Shown: in pieces, positions 8,501-16,849 of the stretch
Numbering within the stretch: position 1 is the stretch's first letter
How the letters are laid out: the number at the start of each line of letters is the position of its first letter
Virus record (IMG/VR): IMGVR_UViG_3300030012_003002
Span: 1 to 36,480 of that record
Strand: one strand, 5' to 3'
From: a virus
DNA: 36,480 nt
Notes under the pieces: model-generated
The model's database searches: none
The model's input: the letters and a program-made list of their open reading frames with translations, nothing else
What the model was told of the DNA's origin: nothing
Position numbers and translations under genes: made by a program

Positions 8501-8572
8501 GGGTCATTAGTTAAGTGGATATAACCTCCGCCTTCTAAGCGGATGTCCCAGGTTCGAGTCCTGGATGACCTG
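8501..8572 (+). tRNA. tRNA-Arg(TCT)
   Basis: A complete cloverleaf: acceptor GGGTCAT/ATGACCT (first pair G-U), D stem GTTA/TAAC, and anticodon stem TCCGC/GCGGA with loop CTTCTAA (anticodon TCT). The T arm carries GGTTCGAGTCC. CCA is not encoded. It reads AGA, a codon used heavily by AT-rich phages. Confidence 0.93.
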
Positions 8573-8576
8573 CCTT

Positions 8577-8647
8577 GCGAGTGTGGTGTAGCGGTAACAT
8601 GCGAGCCTTCCAAGCTCTTGTCACGAGTTCGATCCTCGTCACTCGCT
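8577..8647 (+). tRNA. tRNA-Gly(TCC)
   Basis: Acceptor GCGAGTG pairs perfectly with CACTCGC. The anticodon stem GAGC/GCTC holds loop CTTCCAA (anticodon TCC), and the T arm contains AGTTCGATCCT. It lies only four bases after tRNA-Arg and reads GGA and GGG codons. Confidence 0.93.
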
Positions 8648-8662
8648 TGTCCTTTTTCTATC

Positions 8663-8833
8663 ATGAACCCAGTTAAAATTTTACTTCTATTATCTGAATT
8701 AGAAGGTAGTTCTGCCCACTTGGGTAACTTGGGTTTTGAAGAGGACAAAGAAGTTCTTAACATAATGAAGGGTAAGTATTACAAACTATACTTCAAACTA
8801 TGTAAAGAACAAGGGAGAAATCCCTACGGATAA
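8663..8833 (+). CDS. small protein of unknown function between tRNAs
   Basis: A 56-residue protein (starts MNPVKILLLLSE, ends EQGRNPYG). The frame is open further upstream but that part is tRNA-Gly and tRNA-Arg sequence, so the ATG at 8663 is the only sensible start. It has a hydrophobic N-terminal helix and a basic, tyrosine-rich C-terminal half. It lies between tRNA-Gly and tRNA-Val. No function recognised. Confidence 0.55.
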   Translation: MNPVKILLLLSELEGSSAHLGNLGFEEDKEVLNIMKGKYYKLYFKLCKEQGRNPYG

Positions 8834-8840
8834 TTTAATC

Positions 8841-8912
8841 GCTTGCTTAGCTCAGAGGTAGAGCATCTCGTTTACACCGAGGCGGTCGGCGGTTCAATCC
8901 CGTCAGCAAGCA
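8841..8912 (+). tRNA. tRNA-Val(TAC)
   Basis: Acceptor GCTTGCT/AGCAAGC is perfect. The D arm is TAGCTCAGAGGTAGAGC. The anticodon stem TCTCG/CGAGG holds loop TTTACAC (anticodon TAC), and the T arm has GGTTCAATCCC. It reads GTA and GTG codons. Confidence 0.93.
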
Positions 8913-8929
8913 TTTACACTAAGAGGACC

Positions 8930-9178
8930 ATGATTACAGTAAGATGCAAAGAATGTGCAAAAGAATTAACATCCACTAGTAAAGAACAATTTTGTGGTTG
9001 CCCCAATCAAGTAAGAGTTGTGGACAACAAAGTTGGTGCCGTTGACTTAGATAAAGTTGTAATGGTATCTAACAACGTAGAGAATAAGATTGATAGTCAC
9101 TTCTCTAGATCAGAACTTCTTTATCAAGAGGAGAGACGTAGACGCAAAGTTCGTAGACTAGACTTTGAAGTACGTTAG
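8930..9178 (+). CDS. small protein with zinc-ribbon-like N-terminus
   Basis: An 82-residue protein starting at the ATG at 8930, after an AGGA ribosome-binding site; the longer open frame runs back into tRNA-Val. Residues 6-28 hold CKEC and CGC, a likely four-cysteine zinc site. The C-terminus is strongly basic (RRRRKVRR about 68-75). The combination suggests nucleic-acid or protein binding, for example a transcription accessory factor, but nothing specific can be claimed. Confidence 0.65.
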   Translation: MITVRCKECAKELTSTSKEQFCGCPNQVRVVDNKVGAVDLDKVVMVSNNVENKIDSHFSRSELLYQEERRRRKVRRLDFEVR

Positions 9179-9251
9179 AATTTTTTTATATTTAATAATT
9201 TTGTAACAATTTGATACACTAGATACTGTGTAGACAATCTTTCTACCAATC

Positions 9252-9407
9252 ATGCATCCCGACGAGTTACAAAACTGGCAGATCATTAAAGAAAAATTTG
9301 AGGAAAACGGCACAACAGACAATTTCTTTTATAAGAGAGCTTGTGCTATAGTGAGTGGGTTACCGGATCCTATGAGTAACTTACCAAATGTCACACAGGA
9401 TGGATGA
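9252..9407 (+). CDS. small protein of unknown function
   Basis: A 51-residue protein (starts MHPDELQNWQ, ends NVTQDG). It follows an AT-rich gap of 73 bases that contains a run of seven T (9181-9187) and a weak promoter-like pair (TTGATA at 9211, GACAAT at 9233). It overlaps the next gene by 8 bases. The composition is ordinary soluble protein. No function recognised. Confidence 0.5.
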   Translation: MHPDELQNWQIIKEKFEENGTTDNFFYKRACAIVSGLPDPMSNLPNVTQDG

Positions 9408-9570
9408 GATCAAACCTGAGCACTACGTTACCAAGAAAGAGTGTCAGGAAATGATCGATAAAGCAATTGACAAACATAATAAAACTGCTACAATTATAAG
9501 TGCCATACTCGGTGGCATATTACTTGCCTTTTACTCACATGGTGTATTGTCACTAGTGGGTCGAGTATAG
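9400..9570 (+). CDS. small membrane protein
   Basis: A 56-residue protein with a charged, Lys/Glu-rich helix (about 1-31) followed by a single membrane helix (about 33-50, TIISAILGGILLAFY). I chose the ATG at 9400, which overlaps the preceding stop region; an in-frame ATG at 9388 would add four residues. Single-span phage proteins of this size can be lysis or membrane-stress factors, but there is no direct evidence. Confidence 0.55.
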   Translation: MDEIKPEHYVTKKECQEMIDKAIDKHNKTATIISAILGGILLAFYSHGVLSLVGRV

Positions 9571-9592
9571 GCTGCGGTGACCTCCTTGGTAG

Positions 9593-9619
9593 TTCAGGGT
9601 TAGCGGCGATAGGAACTAC
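9593..9619 (+). repeat. inverted repeat, possible tRNA remnant
   Basis: TGGTAGTTC and its exact complement GAACTACCA flank about 17 bases (9-bp arms). The enclosed sequence (AGGGTTAGCGG) resembles part of a D arm, and the element lies just before tRNA-Pro inside the tRNA cluster. It could be a decayed tRNA, a processing signal or a weak terminator without a T-tract. Confidence 0.4.
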
Positions 9620-9624
9620 CATCA

Positions 9625-9698
9625 CGGGGTGTAGCTCAGTTTGGTAGAGCACTCGTTTTGGGAGCGAGATGCCGCAGGTTCAAATCCTGTCACCCCGA
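9625..9698 (+). tRNA. tRNA-Pro(TGG)
   Basis: Acceptor CGGGGTG/CACCCCG is perfect and carries the C1-G72 pair usual for bacterial tRNA-Pro. The D arm is TAGCTCAGTTTGGTAGAGC. The anticodon loop TTTGGGA gives anticodon TGG, and the T arm has GGTTCAAATCC. It reads CCA and related Pro codons. Confidence 0.93.
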
Positions 9699-9716
9699 TT
9701 CATAAATATCACAACT

Positions 9717-9884
9717 ATGGAAATTTTCTCTGTGGAACACTGGCAAAAAAACTGGGAAAAGTTAATGGAAAGAGTTGAGAATGGAGAACATATTGGAGTG
9801 ACAAATGGAAAGGACACTGCTATAATGATGCCTGCGGATGACGAACTCATACGCATATACACAGATCACAATGAAGGGTCTTGA
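9717..9884 (+). CDS. orphan Phd/YefM-like antitoxin
   Basis: A 55-residue protein (starts MEIFSVEHWQ). Its layout matches the DNA-binding half of Phd/YefM antitoxins: an opening strand, then a helix of the form KNWEKLMERVENGE (about 12-25), then the strand IGVTNGKDTAIMMP (about 27-40), which corresponds to the family's GE...IT.NGKP.AVL block. The toxin-binding C-terminal tail is short and no toxin gene is adjacent. The longer open frame upstream is tRNA-Pro. A late-promoter-like CATAAATA sits at 9701. It ends at the first base pair of tRNA-Ile. It may neutralise a host toxin or act as a repressor. Confidence 0.6.
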   Translation: MEIFSVEHWQKNWEKLMERVENGEHIGVTNGKDTAIMMPADDELIRIYTDHNEGS

Positions 9885-9956
9885 GGGACTGTCGCCTAAT
9901 GGTTAAGGCCCACTGCTTATAACGGTGTGACCTGGGTTCAAATCCCAGCAGTCCTA
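9885..9956 (+). tRNA. tRNA-Ile(TAT)
   Basis: Acceptor GGGACTG/CAGTCCT (first pair G-U). The anticodon stem CACTG/CGGTG holds loop CTTATAA, anticodon TAT, and the T arm has GGTTCAAATCC. A TAT anticodon reads ATA directly, avoiding the lysidine-modified CAT tRNA most bacteria use. It begins immediately after the stop codon of the Phd-like gene. Confidence 0.88.
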
Positions 9957-9959
9957 CCA

Positions 9960-10032
9960 GCAGGTTTAGCAATCTGGTGAATGCAGCAAACTCATAATTT
10001 GCCTAAGGTGAGTTCGATCCTCACAACCTGCA
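9960..10032 (+). tRNA. tRNA-Met(CAT)
   Basis: Acceptor GCAGGTT/AACCTGC is perfect. The anticodon stem GCAAA/TTTGC holds loop CTCATAA (anticodon CAT), and the T arm has AGTTCGATCCT. The paired first base argues against an initiator. An elongator Met tRNA is most likely; a lysidine-modified Ile tRNA cannot be excluded from sequence alone. Confidence 0.88.
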
Positions 10033-10084: not shown

Positions 10085-10297
10085 ATGACACTGACTAGTA
10101 AGTTCAAGAAAGACATTCAGACCCTACGTGGTGCTGTGAATGGTGAATTTTTCCTTGATGTGAAGAATCCGAAACTTCTCAAAAAGGTCCGTCGTTATTA
10201 TGAGAACAACGGAGTTGTATTTTCTGGTGATGCTCTTGACGACTATGATATTCTAATGGAGCAAATCTCAATTGATCTTGAAGCAGTAGAAGCATGA
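10085..10297 (+). CDS. conserved small phage protein of unknown function
   Basis: A 70-residue soluble protein (starts MTLTSKFKKD). It has a basic central helix (KLLKKVRRYYENNG about 32-45) and an acidic C-terminus. The ATG at 10085 was chosen because the promoter hexamers at 10034-10062 occupy the upstream extension of the frame. It overlaps the next gene by ATGA, so the pair is likely translated together from that promoter. Function unknown. Confidence 0.65.
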   Translation: MTLTSKFKKDIQTLRGAVNGEFFLDVKNPKLLKKVRRYYENNGVVFSGDALDDYDILMEQISIDLEAVEA

Positions 10298-10533
10298 AAG
10301 TTCTCCTTGAACGTTTCCCCTATCGTTACGTTGAGTCGGGCACACTAGAAAATGGTATGCCCGACTATCGCATTCAAAAAGCACATCACTATACCAAACG
10401 ATATAGTGACATGTATCTGCTTGATAATCAGATGCAACTATTGACTGCGATTGATGATTTTGAGTATACCAAATGGTTAGATCCTGAAGGTGTGCCTTGT
10501 TACATCAAAGACTCGGTAAGTCGTTTAAACTAG
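10294..10533 (+). CDS. conserved small phage protein of unknown function
   Basis: A 79-residue protein, rich in Tyr and Asp, with no cysteine pair, membrane helix or known motif. It overlaps the preceding gene by four bases (ATGA) and closes the two-gene unit that starts from the promoter at 10034. About 105 bases without a gene follow, in which I see no firm structure apart from a late-promoter-like element. Confidence 0.6.
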   Translation: MKVLLERFPYRYVESGTLENGMPDYRIQKAHHYTKRYSDMYLLDNQMQLLTAIDDFEYTKWLDPEGVPCYIKDSVSRLN

Positions 10534-10605
10534 CCCTGGTCGGGATACCCCCTCAGTCACGGATGGACTTAAACAGAACTGGTGGAGTCACTAGACCCTC
10601 TTAAA

Positions 10606-10613
10606 ACTAAATA
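10606..10613 (+). promoter_or_regulatory. candidate late promoter (ACTAAATA)
   Basis: ACTAAATA matches six of eight bases of the T4 late consensus and fits the CTAAATA form I recall being proposed for cyanophages. It lies 26 bases before the ATG at 10639, a normal late-promoter distance. Confidence 0.4.
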
Positions 10614-10638
10614 TTAAAAGAGTTCATTTTTTAATAAC

Positions 10639-10845
10639 ATGGCAACGAAAGGAACGGCAGCAAAGTCTGCAAGTGGTGCATCGATGTCAAAGTATGATGT
10701 CGAAGTAGAAGGAAGACTCCAAAAACTAGAAGCAGCAATTCATTCTCATGATGGTGGTGGTGAAGTAGATGGAGACAGACTCGCAGCACTTGAAGCTAAG
10801 GTTGATGACCTAATTCAAAGATTGCAAAGAAAATTAAGTTTCTAA
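10639..10845 (+). CDS. small coiled-coil protein
   Basis: A 68-residue protein. It has a Thr/Ala/Ser-rich N-terminus (1-16), an acidic heptad-like segment (about 20-35), a Gly/His linker (HSHDGGGEVDG) and a second coiled-coil helix (about 46-66). It probably oligomerises, and its likely late promoter suggests a virion or assembly role. The stop codon is followed within four bases by a long structured stretch. Function unknown. Confidence 0.6.
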   Translation: MATKGTAAKSASGASMSKYDVEVEGRLQKLEAAIHSHDGGGEVDGDRLAALEAKVDDLIQRLQRKLSF

Positions 10846-10848
10846 TTT

Positions 10849-10946
10849 CTTGCTTTACTTTAAAGCAAGTGGTGCGGATGGAGGTAACTCCCGCCCTGTT
10901 TCTTACTTCAGGTAAAAGAGTAAGTGGCGTGCATGTAAAGACCTAT
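10849..10946 (+). ncRNA. candidate structured RNA before the sugar island
   Basis: Three successive helices fill a gap without genes. The first is a perfect 9-bp hairpin (CTTGCTTTA, 3-base loop, TAAAGCAAG; 10849-10869). The second is a GGAG-GTAA-CTCC tetraloop hairpin inside a GCGG/CCGC frame (10874-10895). The third is CTTACT/AGTAAG with an 11-base loop (10902-10924). The last loop contains AGGT, which could pair with ACCT at 10941 as a pseudoknot. A strong terminator follows. From memory, the wcaG RNA motif of cyanophages also contains a pseudoknot and precedes sugar-synthesis or light-inducible genes, but I cannot check the consensus here. It may be a 3'-UTR element, a stand-alone RNA or a cis-regulator. 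Confidence 0.4.
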
Positions 10947-10947
10947 G

Positions 10948-10974
10948 AGACGGTTGACTTCAACCGTCTTTTTT
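10948..10974 (+). terminator. strong intrinsic terminator
   Basis: A perfect 10-bp stem (AGACGGTTGA / TCAACCGTCT) with a two-base apex, followed by a run of six T ending at 10974. It ends transcripts from the region before the island. Its loop side also carries the -35 hexamer of the next promoter. Confidence 0.9.
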
Positions 10975-10982
10975 AGTATCAT
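10954..10982 (+). promoter_or_regulatory. sigma70-type promoter of the sugar island, interlocked with the terminator
   Basis: TTGACT (10954-10959) lies in the terminator stem-loop. Exactly 17 bases later comes TATCAT (10977-10982); each hexamer matches 5 of 6. Transcription would start near 10989, about 18 bases before the first island gene at 11007. An overlapping TATATAAAAG (10982-10991) is a weaker late-type alternative. Confidence 0.6.
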
Positions 10983-11006: not shown

Positions 11007-12086
11007 ATGTCTGAATATAAGAAAACAGCATTAGTACTCGGTGCTGGTGGATTTATTGGAAGTCACATGGTAAAAAGACTTCGATCTGAGGGATACTGGG
11101 TGCGTGGGGTTGATCTCAAATATCCAGAATTTTCTTCGACACAATCGAATGAATTTATTCAGGGGGACCTTCGTGATGTCGATTTTGTTCGACGTTGTAT
11201 TCGTTATGCTGGTCCCTACAACAACTTTTATGCGTCCATTGTTGATAAACACTTAGGTGTTTTTGATGAGATCTATCAGTTTGCTGCTGATATGGGTGGT
11301 GCTGGTTTTGTCTTCACTGGAGAGAACGATGCAGACATCATGCACAACTCCGTATCTATTAACTTGAATGTTCTTGAAGAACAACGTAAGTGGAATGAAG
11401 ATAAAGGAGTAAATACCACCAAGATTTTCTATTCTGGGTCTGCTTGCATGTACCCAGAGCACAATCAACTTGATCCTGACAACCCCGATTGCCGTGAAGA
11501 ATCAGCATACCCCGCCAATCCAGACTCAGAATACGGATGGGAAAAACTTTTCTCAGAAAGGCTCTACTTTGCTTACAATAGGAATCACGGGATTCCTGTT
11601 CGGGTTGCTCGTTACCACAATATTTTTGGTCCCGAAGGCACCTGGGATGGAGGAAGAGAGAAAGCACCAGCTGCAATCTGCCGCAAAGTTGCTTTCCTCC
11701 CGAAGTCAGGTGGAGCAATCGAAGTGTGGGGAGATGGCCTACAAACTCGTTCCTTCCTGTTCATTGATGAATGCATTGAGGCAACTAGAAGACTGATGGA
11801 TAGTGACTTTATGGGTCCTGTCAACATTGGTTCTGAGGAGATGGTGACTATCAATGAACTTGTAAAAACTGCTGCCAAAGTTTCTGGTAAGAAAGTTAAA
11901 AAAATTCATAAACTTGATGCACCTTTGGGTGTCCGTGGTCGTAACTCTAACAATGATTTGATTCGTGAAAAACTTGATTGGGATTACTCTCAGACTTTGG
12001 AAGAAGGTATTCGCATTACCTACAATTGGATAGAATCTCAAATTGATAGTTCTGAACCATATGTTCCATTTCATCATTCAGTATGA
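11007..12086 (+). CDS. GDP-mannose 3,5-epimerase
   Basis: A 359-residue extended short-chain dehydrogenase expected to convert GDP-D-mannose to GDP-L-galactose (with GDP-L-gulose as a by-product). It has a Rossmann motif GAGGFIG (12-18), the catalytic cysteine in SACMYPE (C147), and Tyr176/Lys180 of YGWEK. The diagnostic blocks GGREKAPAA, WGDGLQTRSF and GVRGRNS are those of the plant enzyme of ascorbate synthesis, and the match runs along the full length. It is the first gene of the island. GDP-mannose must come from the host or an unrecognised island enzyme. Confidence 0.88.
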   Translation: MSEYKKTALVLGAGGFIGSHMVKRLRSEGYWVRGVDLKYPEFSSTQSNEFIQGDLRDVDFVRRCIRYAGPYNNFYASIVDKHLGVFDEIYQFAADMGGAGFVFTGENDADIMHNSVSINLNVLEEQRKWNEDKGVNTTKIFYSGSACMYPEHNQLDPDNPDCREESAYPANPDSEYGWEKLFSERLYFAYNRNHGIPVRVARYHNIFGPEGTWDGGREKAPAAICRKVAFLPKSGGAIEVWGDGLQTRSFLFIDECIEATRRLMDSDFMGPVNIGSEEMVTINELVKTAAKVSGKKVKKIHKLDAPLGVRGRNSNNDLIREKLDWDYSQTLEEGIRITYNWIESQIDSSEPYVPFHHSV

Positions 12087-12784
12087 GTAAATTAGGACCC
12101 TATGCATCTTATGATGCTGAAACAGGATATGCGACATGGGATCACCCCACAGCAGAATATGTTGGCATTTTTGAACGACTTAATGTTAATATCAACGGAA
12201 TTATACACGTTGGAATGTGGGATTTTGTAGAACATGATTGTTATACAAAATTAGTTGGCACAAATGTTATTGGTGTAGAAGCAAATAAATTTGTTTATGA
12301 AACCATGTCTAAACCAGTTGCTGATAGGTGTGGATATAAGTCTTTTAATGAGGTTGTATTCAGTGAAGATGGACTAGAAAAACAATTTTACCTTGCCAAT
12401 GATTGTTCTAGTCTCTCTCCTATTGGAGGACGATCAGTTAATGTAAAAACTAAGAAGTTATCTACGATCATTGAAGAAAACAACATTGATATGAATCAAT
12501 ACGATTTTCTTAATATTGATGCTGAAGGTGCAGAACTTGAGATTCTGAAAGGATTTGAAAATTATCTTAAGTATATCAATGTTATTGACTTAGAAACATC
12601 CTATAATGATCGCAGTAACACTGGAGCATCTCATGATGTCATTGTTGATTGGTTAAGGGACAGAAATTTCACTCTTACTGAGATGTCTGACTCATATGAA
12701 TACGAACAATGGGGAGATTCTGTCTTTGTTCGTAATGATAGAGACCTTTCACCATTTGATAAAACAAAGTATTTACTAAAATGA
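12083..12784 (+). CDS. FkbM-family methyltransferase
   Basis: A 233-residue protein with the FkbM O-methyltransferase layout: an SAM-binding strand IHVG (41-44), an acidic second strand end GVEAN (64-68), and the hallmark block NIDAEGAELEIL (144-155). Members methylate sugar hydroxyls on polyketides, glycolipids and surface glycans. The usual glycine-rich SAM loop is altered (VGMWDF instead of VGANxG), so cofactor binding may differ. It overlaps the epimerase by ATGA and the following gene by four bases. Confidence 0.8.
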   Translation: MSKLGPYASYDAETGYATWDHPTAEYVGIFERLNVNINGIIHVGMWDFVEHDCYTKLVGTNVIGVEANKFVYETMSKPVADRCGYKSFNEVVFSEDGLEKQFYLANDCSSLSPIGGRSVNVKTKKLSTIIEENNIDMNQYDFLNIDAEGAELEILKGFENYLKYINVIDLETSYNDRSNTGASHDVIVDWLRDRNFTLTEMSDSYEYEQWGDSVFVRNDRDLSPFDKTKYLLK

Positions 12785-13581
12785 AAAGAAAACTGAACTT
12801 GGTGGGTAACACTTTTACTCACTTGACGAATGGAAACAAAGGATATTCTGTTCATGGTAAAGAAAGCAAGTATATCGAGTGGGTCACTGATGGTGGTGAT
12901 GCCACTTTTTACATTGACAACACTATTAATGATGGAGTCAATGATGGAAGGAAAGGTTCTAAGTATCTCTGGCTTCTTGAGTCAAAATACATCCGGCAAG
13001 GACTTGTAGAGAGTATTATCGATAATCAACAACTTGTTGAGGACACTTACGACACCATTTTTACTCATGATCAAAGACTTCTTGCCTTAGGCGACAAGTA
13101 TAAATGGGTGCCTGCACAAGGATTTTGGATTAAAGAACCTAAAATTTATGAGAAATCTAAGATGATTTCTATGATTTCCTCCAATAAAAGGATGTGTGAA
13201 GGTCATGTAACTAGACTTGATTGGGTTGATCGCATTGGTGATCAGGTTGATCTTTACGGTCGTGGATTCAATGAGATTGTTGATAAAGAGGAGGGGTTAT
13301 GTGATTATAGATTCTCTGTTGCAATTGAAAATGGTCAATATAAAACATATTTCACTGAAAAAATCTTAGATTGTTTTGCGACAGGAACTATTCCTGTTTA
13401 TCTTGGTGCTCCTGACATTGGTGATCACTTCAATACTGACGGAATTATTACTCTAAGTGATGAATTTGAAGTATCTGAAGAGATTTACGAAAGTAAAATG
13501 GATGCGATTCAAGATAATCTTGAACGTGCAAAAAAAATGGAAGTCTTAGAAGACTTTATCTGGGAGAATTATTTTCAATGA
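12781..13581 (+). CDS. GT10-like fucosyltransferase
   Basis: A 266-residue protein with the C-terminal signature of family GT10 (alpha-1,3/4-fucosyltransferases). This comprises FSVAIEN (178-184), YFTEKILDCF (190-199) and GTIPVYLGAP (202-211), which form the nucleotide-sugar site. The N-terminal acceptor domain is short. The donor would be GDP-fucose or the GDP-L-galactose made by the upstream epimerase. It overlaps both neighbours by four bases. Confidence 0.75.
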   Translation: MKRKLNLVGNTFTHLTNGNKGYSVHGKESKYIEWVTDGGDATFYIDNTINDGVNDGRKGSKYLWLLESKYIRQGLVESIIDNQQLVEDTYDTIFTHDQRLLALGDKYKWVPAQGFWIKEPKIYEKSKMISMISSNKRMCEGHVTRLDWVDRIGDQVDLYGRGFNEIVDKEEGLCDYRFSVAIENGQYKTYFTEKILDCFATGTIPVYLGAPDIGDHFNTDGIITLSDEFEVSEEIYESKMDAIQDNLERAKKMEVLEDFIWENYFQ

Positions 13582-14285
13582 AACCTTGCCTAATTAAACA
13601 ACCTGCAGGTATTGGTGATATTTTCTTTTGTCAGAAAATTGCTAGGGTGATGATGCAAAATCGTTATCAAGTCATCTGGCCATTGAGACCTGACATTCAT
13701 TGGATTAAAGATTACATTAAGGACATTTATTTTCCTACTATTGATGATGATTTTTTAGGTAAAGATGTCTATGAAAGAGGTGCTGGTGCTGTAATTAATG
13801 AGAATGGTGCCTTCATCAGCACTGCAACTGCTGATATGACTCACAATGATGGCAAGATTATGAGTTCAAAATACTCGATGTTAGGTCTTGATCACTCTGA
13901 TTGGAAAGATTATTTCAAGTTTGAACGTAACTTTGATAAAGAGGATGATCTATACTATAATGTTCTTGATCTTAAAGATGATTCTGAGTTTGTATTCATA
14001 AACAATCTTTATAATACAGACATTAGAGATTGCGAACTCTTATCACCTGAAAACTACGATTTACCTGTAGTTGAACTTAAAATTATGGATGGATTTACTC
14101 TCTTTGATTGGTGTAAAGTCCTTGAAAAGGCAAAAAGTGTCTTCACCATTAACACATCAATCAATTATCTTATTGATGTGCTTGATACATCATATGAAAA
14201 ATATGTAATTATTGCTCATGGTGAGCAAAATAAGAGAGAAATTGATTACCTTTTTAGTACACCACATGAAATGATATGCAAGTAG
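13578..14285 (+). CDS. putative glycosyltransferase, GT-B/heptosyltransferase-like
   Basis: A 235-residue protein. The N-terminus (IKQPAGIGDIFFCQ) resembles the opening GxGD loop of GT9 heptosyltransferases and related GT-B enzymes. The C-terminal part has FTINTSINYLIDVL, in the place where these enzymes read a donor-site strand. It is shorter than typical GT9 enzymes (about 320-350). The similarity is weak and only the context (sugar island, overlapping genes) supports the call. Confidence 0.45.
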   Translation: MKPCLIKQPAGIGDIFFCQKIARVMMQNRYQVIWPLRPDIHWIKDYIKDIYFPTIDDDFLGKDVYERGAGAVINENGAFISTATADMTHNDGKIMSSKYSMLGLDHSDWKDYFKFERNFDKEDDLYYNVLDLKDDSEFVFINNLYNTDIRDCELLSPENYDLPVVELKIMDGFTLFDWCKVLEKAKSVFTINTSINYLIDVLDTSYEKYVIIAHGEQNKREIDYLFSTPHEMICK

Positions 14286-14764
14286 TAGAGTATCGGGGTG
14301 ATGTTTACCCTCAATTTCAAACTGTTGGTAATGCATCACAGTTTGCAATTCCTTTTGCCAAGCATGTTTGCAATGGTAAAGGATATGACATTGGATGCAT
14401 GAAACCAGAATGGGCATTTCCGGGTGCTACACCTATTGACCTTGATTTCAATGATCCTTGGCACGCTGATAACCTTCCACCATTCCCTGTTGACTATATT
14501 TTCTCCAGTCATTGTCTAGAACATGTGCCAGATTGGGTGGAAACTATGAATTATTGGTATAAATGTTTGAAAGGTGGTGGTGTATTGTTCTTATATCTCC
14601 CTGACTACAGTCAACAATACTGGAGACCCTGGAACAATCGTAAACATAAGCACTCATTTAAACCTGAAATTCTTCGTGATTACATGATTGATAAAGGGTT
14701 TAAAAACGTTTTTGTGTCTGGCATTGATCTAAACAATTCATTCATGGTCATGGGGGAAAAATGA
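14276..14764 (+). CDS. SAM-dependent methyltransferase
   Basis: A 162-residue class I methyltransferase of the Methyltransf_11 type. It has an SAM loop YDIGC (37-41), an acidic strand end PIDLDF (53-58), the typical FSSHCLEHVPDW block (76-87) and the LKGGGVLFLYLPD strand. It is small, close to the minimal Rossmann core. It overlaps the previous gene by 10 bases and the next by 4. It probably methylates an island sugar or glycan end; the acceptor is unknown. Confidence 0.75.
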   Translation: MQVVEYRGDVYPQFQTVGNASQFAIPFAKHVCNGKGYDIGCMKPEWAFPGATPIDLDFNDPWHADNLPPFPVDYIFSSHCLEHVPDWVETMNYWYKCLKGGGVLFLYLPDYSQQYWRPWNNRKHKHSFKPEILRDYMIDKGFKNVFVSGIDLNNSFMVMGEK

Positions 14765-15585
14765 AAAAAATTGTAATCTCAACTTGGTGTACAGATGACT
14801 ATGCTCCTCTTTTGGGGATTGAAAAACTTACAAATTCAATTAAGTATTTTCATCCAGAAGTAGATCATTTTATTGTAGATACTGAGATGACTGAAAAAAT
14901 TCGTAAGAATTATTCTTGGATGAAACCTGTATGGATGATGGCACCAACTTGTATGCCACTCATTGATGATTATGATATGGTTATTCATTTAGATGCCGAT
15001 GCTGTTGTTACTGGACCTCTTGATGAGATGTTTAATAGCACCGCTGATGTAATTGGAGTTAGAAATAATACAAGTAAAAATACTGCAGGAGCTCATAGAG
15101 GAATAACAATTCCGCACAGTCCTCCTTTTGGTAATGGTAATCCAATTCCAATGCAACAATTTATTAATGCTGGAATGGTGGGTGTAAATAAAAAAGAATT
15201 TTGGTATGACTGGCATAATTTAAATGAACAGATTGCTAAAACTGGAATGAGTGACGAGCAAGATACTCTTAATAATCTTTTTCATTGGAAAAAGTATAAC
15301 TCAGAGGTTATTGATCTGATGGGAACAGGAGTTTCTTATGGACTTTGTAATGCCTGGGGAACGGGAAATAATCATTGGGAAAGTTGGTCGCAAATTTACG
15401 TGAAATGTGATAGACTATACCTTGATGATCCTGTAACCGGAGAAGCAATGTGTATTAAGGTAATGCATCAAGCAGGTGGTGGTGCTGCCATAGAACATAA
15501 TAAATCATTGGGATTTAGAAATTGGTTGTCATCGGTTGTGTCTAATGAAGTCAATGAATACTTGAATGAGGTTCAAAATGGTTGA
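14761..15585 (+). CDS. glycosyltransferase, GT8-like
   Basis: A 274-residue GT-A-fold enzyme. The metal-binding DxD is in LDADAVV (77-83), followed by the GPLDEMF block. Further on come FINAGMVGVNK and DEQDTLNN, then a C-terminal VMHQAG histidine. This is the order seen in GT8 and related nucleotide-sugar transferases, which use UDP-Glc or UDP-Gal. The donor cannot be set from sequence. Confidence 0.7.
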   Translation: MKKIVISTWCTDDYAPLLGIEKLTNSIKYFHPEVDHFIVDTEMTEKIRKNYSWMKPVWMMAPTCMPLIDDYDMVIHLDADAVVTGPLDEMFNSTADVIGVRNNTSKNTAGAHRGITIPHSPPFGNGNPIPMQQFINAGMVGVNKKEFWYDWHNLNEQIAKTGMSDEQDTLNNLFHWKKYNSEVIDLMGTGVSYGLCNAWGTGNNHWESWSQIYVKCDRLYLDDPVTGEAMCIKVMHQAGGGAAIEHNKSLGFRNWLSSVVSNEVNEYLNEVQNG

Positions 15586-16849
15586 TATTGAATCACTTTT
15601 AGAGGGTGTAAAACCTCGTTACTTTGCTAATAGTGAGTGGAAACCAGGTAATCCAGTATATTATTCTGGTCCTTATTGGGACAACCAGGAGTTAGGAGCA
15701 GCTGTCAATGGACTTCTCAATGGTAAGTGGTTGGCATCTGGTGAGAAAGTATATGAGTTTGAGAAAAAGTTCTCTAAGCAATTCAACAAGGGATATTCTT
15801 TGATGGTGAACTCTGGTAGTTCTGCTAATCTTGTTATGATTGCCGCACTTAAAAAACGATTTGGTTGGCAAGATGGTGATGAAATCATCGTGTCATGTGT
15901 TGGTTTTCCTACCACCATTGCACCTATTGTTCAGAACGGTTTAAAACCAGTATTCGTTGATATTAATTTCTCTGACCTGAACTGGAACCTGGAAGAGATT
16001 GAAGAAAAGATCTCTACGAAGACTCGTGGCATCTTCTCCTCACCTGTTCTTGGTAATCCATACGATGTAGATGAGATCCTGGACATCTGTGATCGCAATA
16101 AGATCATGTTGATTTCTGACAATTGCGATAGTCTTGGTAGCAAGTGGAATGGTCGTTTCCTTACTGACCACTCTATCGCTGCATCTTGTTCTTTCTACCC
16201 TGCTCATCACATCTGTACTGGTGAGGGTGGTATGATCTCCTCTGATGATGAGGAACTTATTAATATTGCCCGTAGTTTGGCATGGTGGGGACGTGATTGC
16301 TACTGTGTTGGTACACAGAATCTCCTTGCCTGTGGAACATGTGGTAAGAGATTTGATAAGTGGATTGAAAATTACGATGGTATTATTGACCACAAGTATG
16401 TGTACTCTCAGATGGGTTATAATCTGAAGCCCATGGATTTCCAGGGTGCTATCGGGACTGTTCAGTTGACTAAACAGGATGAGATTCATCGTCTGCGTCG
16501 TAAGAACAAGGTTCTGATGCAGAAGATCTTTGAACGTATTCCTGGTGTCCGTAGTGTGAATGAACTGCCTAAAGCAGAGACCAGTTGGTTTGGTGTCCCT
16601 ATCATCTGTGATAGTGTAGAAACTAAGACTAAACTGACTAAGCACTTGGAAGATAATAAGGTTCAGACTCGTAACTACTTTGCTGGCAACATTCTGATGC
16701 ACCCTGGTTATCGTCACCTTGATTATTATCGAAACTATCCAAATGCATGTAAGGTGCTTGATTTGGTGTTCTTTGTTGGTTGTTCTCCCACGATTACTGA
16801 GGAGATGATTGATTATGTTGGAACTGTAGTTGATTCTTTTGAGAAATGA
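15578..16849 (+). CDS. RfbH-like PLP/[2Fe-2S] sugar 3-dehydratase
   Basis: A 423-residue DegT/DnrJ/EryC1-fold enzyme. The PLP-anchoring lysine is replaced by a His-His pair (210-211, in YPAHHICTGEGG), as in RfbH/E1, the CDP-4-keto-6-deoxyglucose 3-dehydrase. The iron-sulfur pattern is kept: C183, then 57 residues, then C241 and C243, with further cysteines at 252 and 255 (RfbH has X7 where this has X8 or X11). HKYVYSQMGYNLK also matches RfbH. It should dehydrate C3 of a 4-keto-6-deoxy nucleotide sugar, with an electron-donating partner reductase. ColD has the His but no cluster. The ATG at 15578 has a good GAGG site. Confidence 0.82.
   Translation: MVDIESLLEGVKPRYFANSEWKPGNPVYYSGPYWDNQELGAAVNGLLNGKWLASGEKVYEFEKKFSKQFNKGYSLMVNSGSSANLVMIAALKKRFGWQDGDEIIVSCVGFPTTIAPIVQNGLKPVFVDINFSDLNWNLEEIEEKISTKTRGIFSSPVLGNPYDVDEILDICDRNKIMLISDNCDSLGSKWNGRFLTDHSIAASCSFYPAHHICTGEGGMISSDDEELINIARSLAWWGRDCYCVGTQNLLACGTCGKRFDKWIENYDGIIDHKYVYSQMGYNLKPMDFQGAIGTVQLTKQDEIHRLRRKNKVLMQKIFERIPGVRSVNELPKAETSWFGVPIICDSVETKTKLTKHLEDNKVQTRNYFAGNILMHPGYRHLDYYRNYPNACKVLDLVFFVGCSPTITEEMIDYVGTVVDSFEK

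Follow-up and report, generated by a model that had tools for sequence, protein, structure and literature searches.

The window analysed here, a stretch of 36,480 nucleotides from a virus (IMG/VR record IMGVR_UViG_3300030012_003002), carries a genuine copy of the wcaG RNA, and wcaG, as comparison of related loci shows at the sequence level, makes up the final two units of a longer array composed of pseudoknots and hairpins. We give about even chances to the reading that this array is a 3'-terminal or intercistronic RNA on the upstream transcript and not a metabolite switch for the epimerase gene behind it. Since 2010, wcaG has figured as a probable cis-regulator or riboswitch candidate for sugar and high-light genes of cyanophages. 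The original survey describes a marine and cyanophage motif, usually ahead of exopolysaccharide or high-light genes, as a possible riboswitch (PMC2864571). Two cyanophage papers repeat the riboswitch-candidate view, one of them PMC9964418, and our search of the open literature found no experimental work on wcaG. The usual label of 5'-UTR cis-regulator and riboswitch candidate seems to fit poorly. The window has the following features.

8501-10032, +: cluster of six tRNA genes and small ORFs (Rfam scan)
10294-10533, +: small gene, 79 aa, phrog_481 (profile family membership)
10510-10552, +: array unit 1, pseudoknot-type hairpin GACUCGGUAAGUC-(linker)-CCC, then UGGUCGGGAUACCCCC (unit found in relatives; model R2)
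10555-10598, +: array unit 2, hairpin AGUC-ACGGAUG-GACU, linker, UGGUGGAGUC...GACCC (model R2)
10607-10613, +: late-promoter-like CTAAATA, 32 nt upstream of the 68-aa gene's start codon (motif)
10639-10845, +: small gene of 68 aa, phrog_35121, flanked by array units 2 and 3 (ORF, profile family)
10841-10938, +: wcaG RNA, RF01761, equal to array units 3 and 4 (Rfam covariance model, 91.6 bits)
10849-10869, +: H1, the unit 3 hairpin, CUUGCUUU (10849-10856) with AAAGCAAG (10862-10869) (folding, alignment)
10870-10895, +: conserved UGGUGCGGAUGG and P2 hairpin with GUAA loop (folding, alignment A1)
10874-10894, +: H2, the P2 hairpin itself, GCGG..GGAG(GUAA)CUCC..CCGC (folding)
10895-10924, +: unit 4, H-type pseudoknot of CCUG (10895-10898) with CAGG (10909-10912), plus helix CUUACU/AGUAAG (covariation)
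10902-10907 with 10919-10924, +: H3, the unit-4 helix CUUACU/AGUAAG (folding)
10925-10935, +: terminal motif UGGCGUGCAUG, which closes the last unit in most relatives (alignment)
10947-10975, +: intrinsic terminator GAGACGGUUGACUUCAACCGUC with U tract, hairpin at 10947-10970 (mechanical scan)
10954-10982, +: sigma-70-type promoter TTGACT-17-TATCAT, which overlaps the terminator and precedes the epimerase gene (mechanical scan, consensus match)
11007-12086, +: NAD-dependent epimerase/dehydratase, first gene of the sugar island (PF01370, E 3.4e-34)

The family of the element is settled. The Rfam 15 wcaG model matches 10841-10938 on the + strand with 91.6 bits (cut-off 42, E 2.9e-16) over model positions 1-98 of 98, and no other Rfam 15 family comes near its own cut-off at this stretch. 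The initial annotation had pointed to the wcaG motif of cyanophages and proposed a check with the Rfam covariance models, and this score, far above the cut-off and with no competing family, bears the identity out. Our own model R1, whose training set includes the window sequence, gives 103.5 bits for 10836-10945. The stop codon of the 68-aa ORF overlaps the first bases of the match, and the next gene after it is the 359-aa epimerase. Folded together with its terminator (10840-10980), the stretch yields three hairpins plus the terminator at -43 kcal/mol (z -3.26) and beats 199 of 200 dinucleotide shuffles; H1, H2 and H3 are thus the three hairpins proposed earlier for 10846-10974. Of the finer details suggested there, the GTAA tetraloop is present in the window copy but does not define the element, as the P2 loop differs in sequence and length between relatives. 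The AGGT/ACCT pseudoknot is not supported: the ACCT behind H3 is not conserved in alignment A1, and covariation backs CCUG 10895-10898 with CAGG 10909-10912.

Relatives were collected by searching IMG/VR with a pattern derived from the core, which gave at least 120 stretches. After the window and two isolates were added and identical copies removed, the set comprised 115 sites, among the matches listed; locus L016, an apparent chance match, was excluded. Since the pattern fixes UGGUGCGGA, CC.CC and GUUUC, the invariance of those bases is no evidence. All counts of relatives refer to related loci and not to independent events, their frequencies describe the sample and not the population, and genes in metagenome loci were called with a simple ORF caller. 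The relatives belong to Kyanoviridae isolates (T4-like cyanophages) and marine metagenomes. No wcaG match was found in 386 Cyanobacteriota genomes under stricter filters, and pattern matches in genome contigs of scattered bacteria were set aside as apparent chance matches.

Alignment A1 contains 92 wcaG copies, in which the unit-4 pseudoknot, the unit-4 helix and the outer P2 helix are paired in 99.1% of cells and carry 209 double changes, compared with 85% and 69 in shuffles. When the partner is slid by one column, pairing in the same helices falls to about 50%. The P2 outer helix is invariant, partly through the search pattern. In the unit-4 pseudoknot the outer C and G are likewise fixed by the pattern, while the two pairs inside them are unconstrained and covary: CUGG/CCAG occurs in 59 copies, CCUG/CAGG in 10 (the window included), CAGG/CCUG in 9, CCAG/CUGG in 6 and CUAG/CUAG in 5. 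A model match in the window and compensatory changes in relatives, whose joint absence the initial annotation had named as refuting it, were both found. The first pseudoknot of wcaG, in unit 3, is supported more weakly than that of unit 4. In relatives the unit 3 loop pairs with bases before UUUC; 48 of 58 copies can form this pairing, where permutations average 38 and reach 45 at most. The window copy allows only a weak version made of a few A-U pairs. The unit-4 helix contains nine G-U pairs and no A-C mismatches, which points to an RNA of this strand. Many bases outside the helices are also conserved in A1, beyond the need of a plain stability element, and so wcaG is likely to bind a specific partner or ligand.

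It could be argued that this conservation reflects a short protein-coding gene instead of an RNA. GenBank ORFs overlie the element in S-SM2, Syn1 and syn9, and the wcaG core contains an invariant AUG. Yet the distances from this AUG to the next fixed motif fall in all three frames (mod 3: 49, 33, 32), the ORFs that begin at it scatter in length from 0 to over 100 aa, and the helices carry compensatory changes, so that we hold a coding gene to be extremely improbable. The short ORF within wcaG was rejected, as no frame is conserved. For the same reason the hypothetical proteins drawn over wcaG in S-SM2 (L239, 4947-5141), Syn1 (L240, 2979-3068) and syn9 (gp208; L241, 2940-3098) are probably spurious genes.

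The first half of the array lies at 10510-10598, across the small gene, and is an addition to the initial annotation. Unit 1 uses the last codons and the stop of the ORF at 10294-10533. Model R2, built from 34 units of other loci without the window, matches unit 2 at 10552-10604 with 66.1 bits (E 1.4e-19), and unit 1 at 10509-10540 with 17.1 bits (E 0.005), a match that is weak alone; it also finds array sites in several isolates. In relatives a unit consists of a small pseudoknot or hairpin, UGGU and then a spacer hairpin, and the last unit normally closes with UGGCG(A/U)GC(A/C)UG. In 74 of 104 loci the 130 nt upstream of wcaG contain one or more extra units, and a further 66 unit matches lie 131-450 nt upstream, while the opposite strand yields only 7 over all loci (all among the matches listed). 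The second unit type is a stem, a 7-nt loop with GG, the other arm of the stem, a linker and UGGU; it is represented by 132 distinct copies with compensatory stems (AGUC/GACU, AGAC/GUCU, CGUC/GACG, CAUG/CAUG, CGUG/CACG and others), and its fold appears at 37 of 1360 control sites. The start of its loop tracks the end of the linker, ACGG going with NAC, and UCGG, AUGG and UUGG with CCC, a link that hints at further pairing. Taken alone, 10510-10640 shows no significant minimum free energy fold (z -0.50), nested folding being blind to these pseudoknots. Rfam scans of the window and of six array loci returned no family for the upstream units, and manA or another Rfam family was ruled out as their identity. 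In Bellamy and Syn9, scanned over nearly their whole genomes, convincing units occur at one place only in each.

In the window the array is split, with units 1 and 2 at 10510-10598 followed by CTAAATA and the 68-aa gene, and then by units 3 and 4, which are wcaG. Phages S-SM2 and Bellamy have an array split in the same manner. Among 59 dereplicated relatives of this gene (among the matches listed), units flank it on both sides in 27, on neither in 19, after it only in 11 and before it only in 2. This co-occurrence has a Fisher p of 6e-6, to be read with the shared ancestry of the loci and with partly imperfect assignments by simple patterns. The 68-aa late gene stands exactly at a unit boundary, as if inserted at a unit junction. 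Compared with RF01761 as described, the window copy is the same in its full-length match, three hairpins, conserved bases, cyanophage setting and epimerase neighbour, but it makes up one half of an array that a small late gene divides, and its unit-4 pseudoknot pairs are missing from the nested family structure printed by cmscan.

Since the parts co-occur even where a gene splits the array, they may act as a whole. We tentatively propose that wcaG is a fragment of an undescribed class of phage RNA, in which one to about five unlike pseudoknot units and a fixed closing unit would end a cyanophage tRNA/small-gene operon and act together through a specific partner, not as a sugar leader; we see this broader proposal as possible, though clearly less probable than the reading with which we opened. 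In two loci (L288 and L291) the epimerase comes straight after phrog_481, neither array nor terminator lying between them, and the array therefore seems dispensable in some phages. Three cyanophage contigs (L399, L405 and L412) likewise have phrog_481 directly before the epimerase, array and terminator being naturally absent.

Repeated structured RNAs are known from other systems. The STAXI motif (Weinberg et al. 2010; PMC2864571) is a pseudoknot repeated two or three times, but its gene neighbours handle DNA, and Rfam scans of the array loci gave no STAXI match. The manA RNA (RF01745) is another cyanophage RNA of that survey (PMC2864571) and comes from the same kind of phages, yet neither the window nor six array loci match it. 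Type III antitoxins (ToxI, TenpI, CptI) are tandem small structured RNAs followed by an intrinsic terminator (PMC12373285), a layout shared by the array. The array might accordingly be an antitoxin-like or sponge RNA acting in trans, its pseudoknots being cut from the transcript to titrate a host protein, much as type III pseudoknot repeats bind their toxin, and in phage S-CREM1 wcaG, manA and abiF RNA lie within about 1 kb (PMC9964418). The abiF co-occurrence is nevertheless a single published case, and the window has no Rfam match to abiF RNA. No recognisable toxin gene stands behind the array, where the window has an epimerase and the relatives mainly sugar-enzyme families. The units are moreover diverse in sequence and unlike each other, not short tandem repeats as in type III antitoxins, and we judge such a role in trans unlikely.

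The gene neighbourhood suggests that wcaG sits at the end of a tRNA/small-gene block, before a new promoter. Among the matches listed, 84 of 95 relatives have tRNAs in the 2.5 kb before wcaG and 8 of 93 in the 2.5 kb after it; within 1.5 kb upstream, phrog_552 is found in 76 and phrog_481 homologues in 67 of 90. The genes downstream in the sample are mostly sugar enzymes, with hli, tRNAs or an oxygenase in several isolates. In the window the sugar island covers 11007-16849 and encodes the epimerase, an FkbM methyltransferase, a GT10-type glycosyltransferase, another methyltransferase and a DegT-type aminotransferase. Neither neighbour is an obligate partner: searches that started from phrog_481 found wcaG further on in 39 of 70 loci, and those from the epimerase found it at most 250 nt upstream in 31 of 80 (among the matches listed). 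The [AC]TAAATA motif is enriched ahead of genes in Bellamy and Syn9, and a late-promoter-like motif precedes 55 of 59 relatives of the 68-aa gene, among the matches listed. The idea that wcaG is generally a late 3' UTR was rejected, as late promoters stand before 13 of 88 upstream genes, mainly of the 68-aa gene family.

Promoters and terminators are throughout consensus matches, read from sequence alone. In the window, the placement of the element between a small gene and a terminator was confirmed by the ORF at 10639-10845 and by the hairpin at 10947-10970 with its T tract, and the mechanical scan recovered the promoter noted inside that terminator. An intrinsic terminator stands right behind wcaG in 89 of 106 IMG/VR relatives (among the matches listed). 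Within this terminator-bearing group, 75 of 89 have a -10 box just behind the terminator, mostly 5-7 nt past the stem (among the matches listed), and 17 nt upstream of that box, inside the terminator hairpin, lies TTGCAT (42), TTGACA (10) or TTTACA (6). Promoter-like pairs occur in the 150 nt behind wcaG in 78 of 107 relatives (73%) but in two 150-nt windows before it in only 5 of 112 and 3 of 107 (3-5%), all among the matches listed, and in 246 of 2000 random background windows (12%). Applied to Bellamy and Syn9, the same loose rule classes 9 of 44 and 5 of 24 terminators, respectively, as such composites; no paper mapping Syn9 transcription starts was found in the open literature. From these positions in relatives, wcaG probably ends the upstream tRNA/small-gene transcript, and the sugar genes probably use their own promoter. 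The initial annotation had linked the element to the sugar island behind it but, because of the promoter inside the terminator, allowed for a 3' element or separate RNA instead. The doubt has become the better-supported functional reading, through the terminators and promoter-like pairs of the relatives. As to the 5'-UTR location suggested in the literature, the next gene is an epimerase, but a terminator and a promoter lie between; the window copy, preceding this composite, is probably outside the 5' UTR of the main downstream transcript.

The composite also bears on the published suggestion that wcaG is a riboswitch or attenuator (PMC2864571), binding a metabolite such as a nucleotide sugar and gating passage through the terminator into the sugar genes. 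This would agree with the conserved unpaired bases and with a terminator directly behind wcaG. In epimerase loci a terminator is present in 29 of 31 cases where wcaG is adjacent and in 9 of 49 otherwise (among the matches listed), which also speaks for it. However, in most relatives wcaG is followed by a promoter for the downstream gene, and the pairing expected of an expression platform is absent: the longest pairing between the terminator arm and wcaG averages 7.10, at the level of permuted pairs (7.005, sd 0.08) and with no excess beyond them. Weakened by these two results, and further by the mixed downstream genes (sugar genes, tRNAs, hli, oxygenase) and by varied numbers of unlike units, an unusual layout for an aptamer, the riboswitch seems to us improbable, though somewhat less so than the sponge RNA.

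Antitermination, in which the array would act in cis and make RNA polymerase pass the following terminator and others in the sugar island, we place at the same low level as the riboswitch. The put RNA of phage HK022 and the EAR/epsC element act on RNA polymerase in this way, and as structured RNAs close to sugar operons or ahead of terminators they resemble the array, although no sequence relation to it was seen. The array is indeed followed directly by a terminator and a long operon, is associated with sugar genes and conserves unpaired bases. Against this, a promoter for the operon itself follows the array, units are also seen in gaps between small genes where there is no terminator, and some arrays lack one.

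We thus favour the array as the end of an upstream transcript. Most likely it is transcribed as the tail of the tRNA/small-gene transcript, and in the window it would also be the tail of the late transcript of the 68-aa gene, from CTAAATA at 10607. This upstream transcript would stop at the terminator (10947-10975), and the sugar genes would start at the promoter that overlaps it, so that, judging from the signal positions, the main sugar transcript most likely lacks wcaG. The array itself most likely has its effect on its own transcript, or else works as an RNA excised from that transcript. It is tempting to propose a rigid 3'-end or intercistronic structure bound by a partner, which could, for example, fix transcript ends and slow 3'-to-5' decay. 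The transcript ends and starts that we infer from these signals, service to the upstream transcript or release from it, and partner binding all belong to this proposal. Upstream readthrough would still put wcaG ahead of the sugar genes. In several loci without a terminator wcaG lies directly between two genes (e.g. S-H38 and Sf-FR1; also L024, L065, L083 and L086), and since such copies, as in S-H38, are internal to an operon, a role for the downstream gene is possible there. If the array end is tied to the upstream transcript, searches for a sugar ligand would be misdirected and the Rfam model would leave part of the RNA uncovered.

The overlapping terminator and promoter may be seen as a compact design that separates neighbouring transcription units. 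In four loci (L372, L378, L386 and L409) the composite stands ahead of the epimerase without an adjacent wcaG, and it thus exists alone too. In S-IOM18 and S-RSM4 (L278, L280) the array is followed by a hairpin and then directly by a tRNA gene, with no protein gene.
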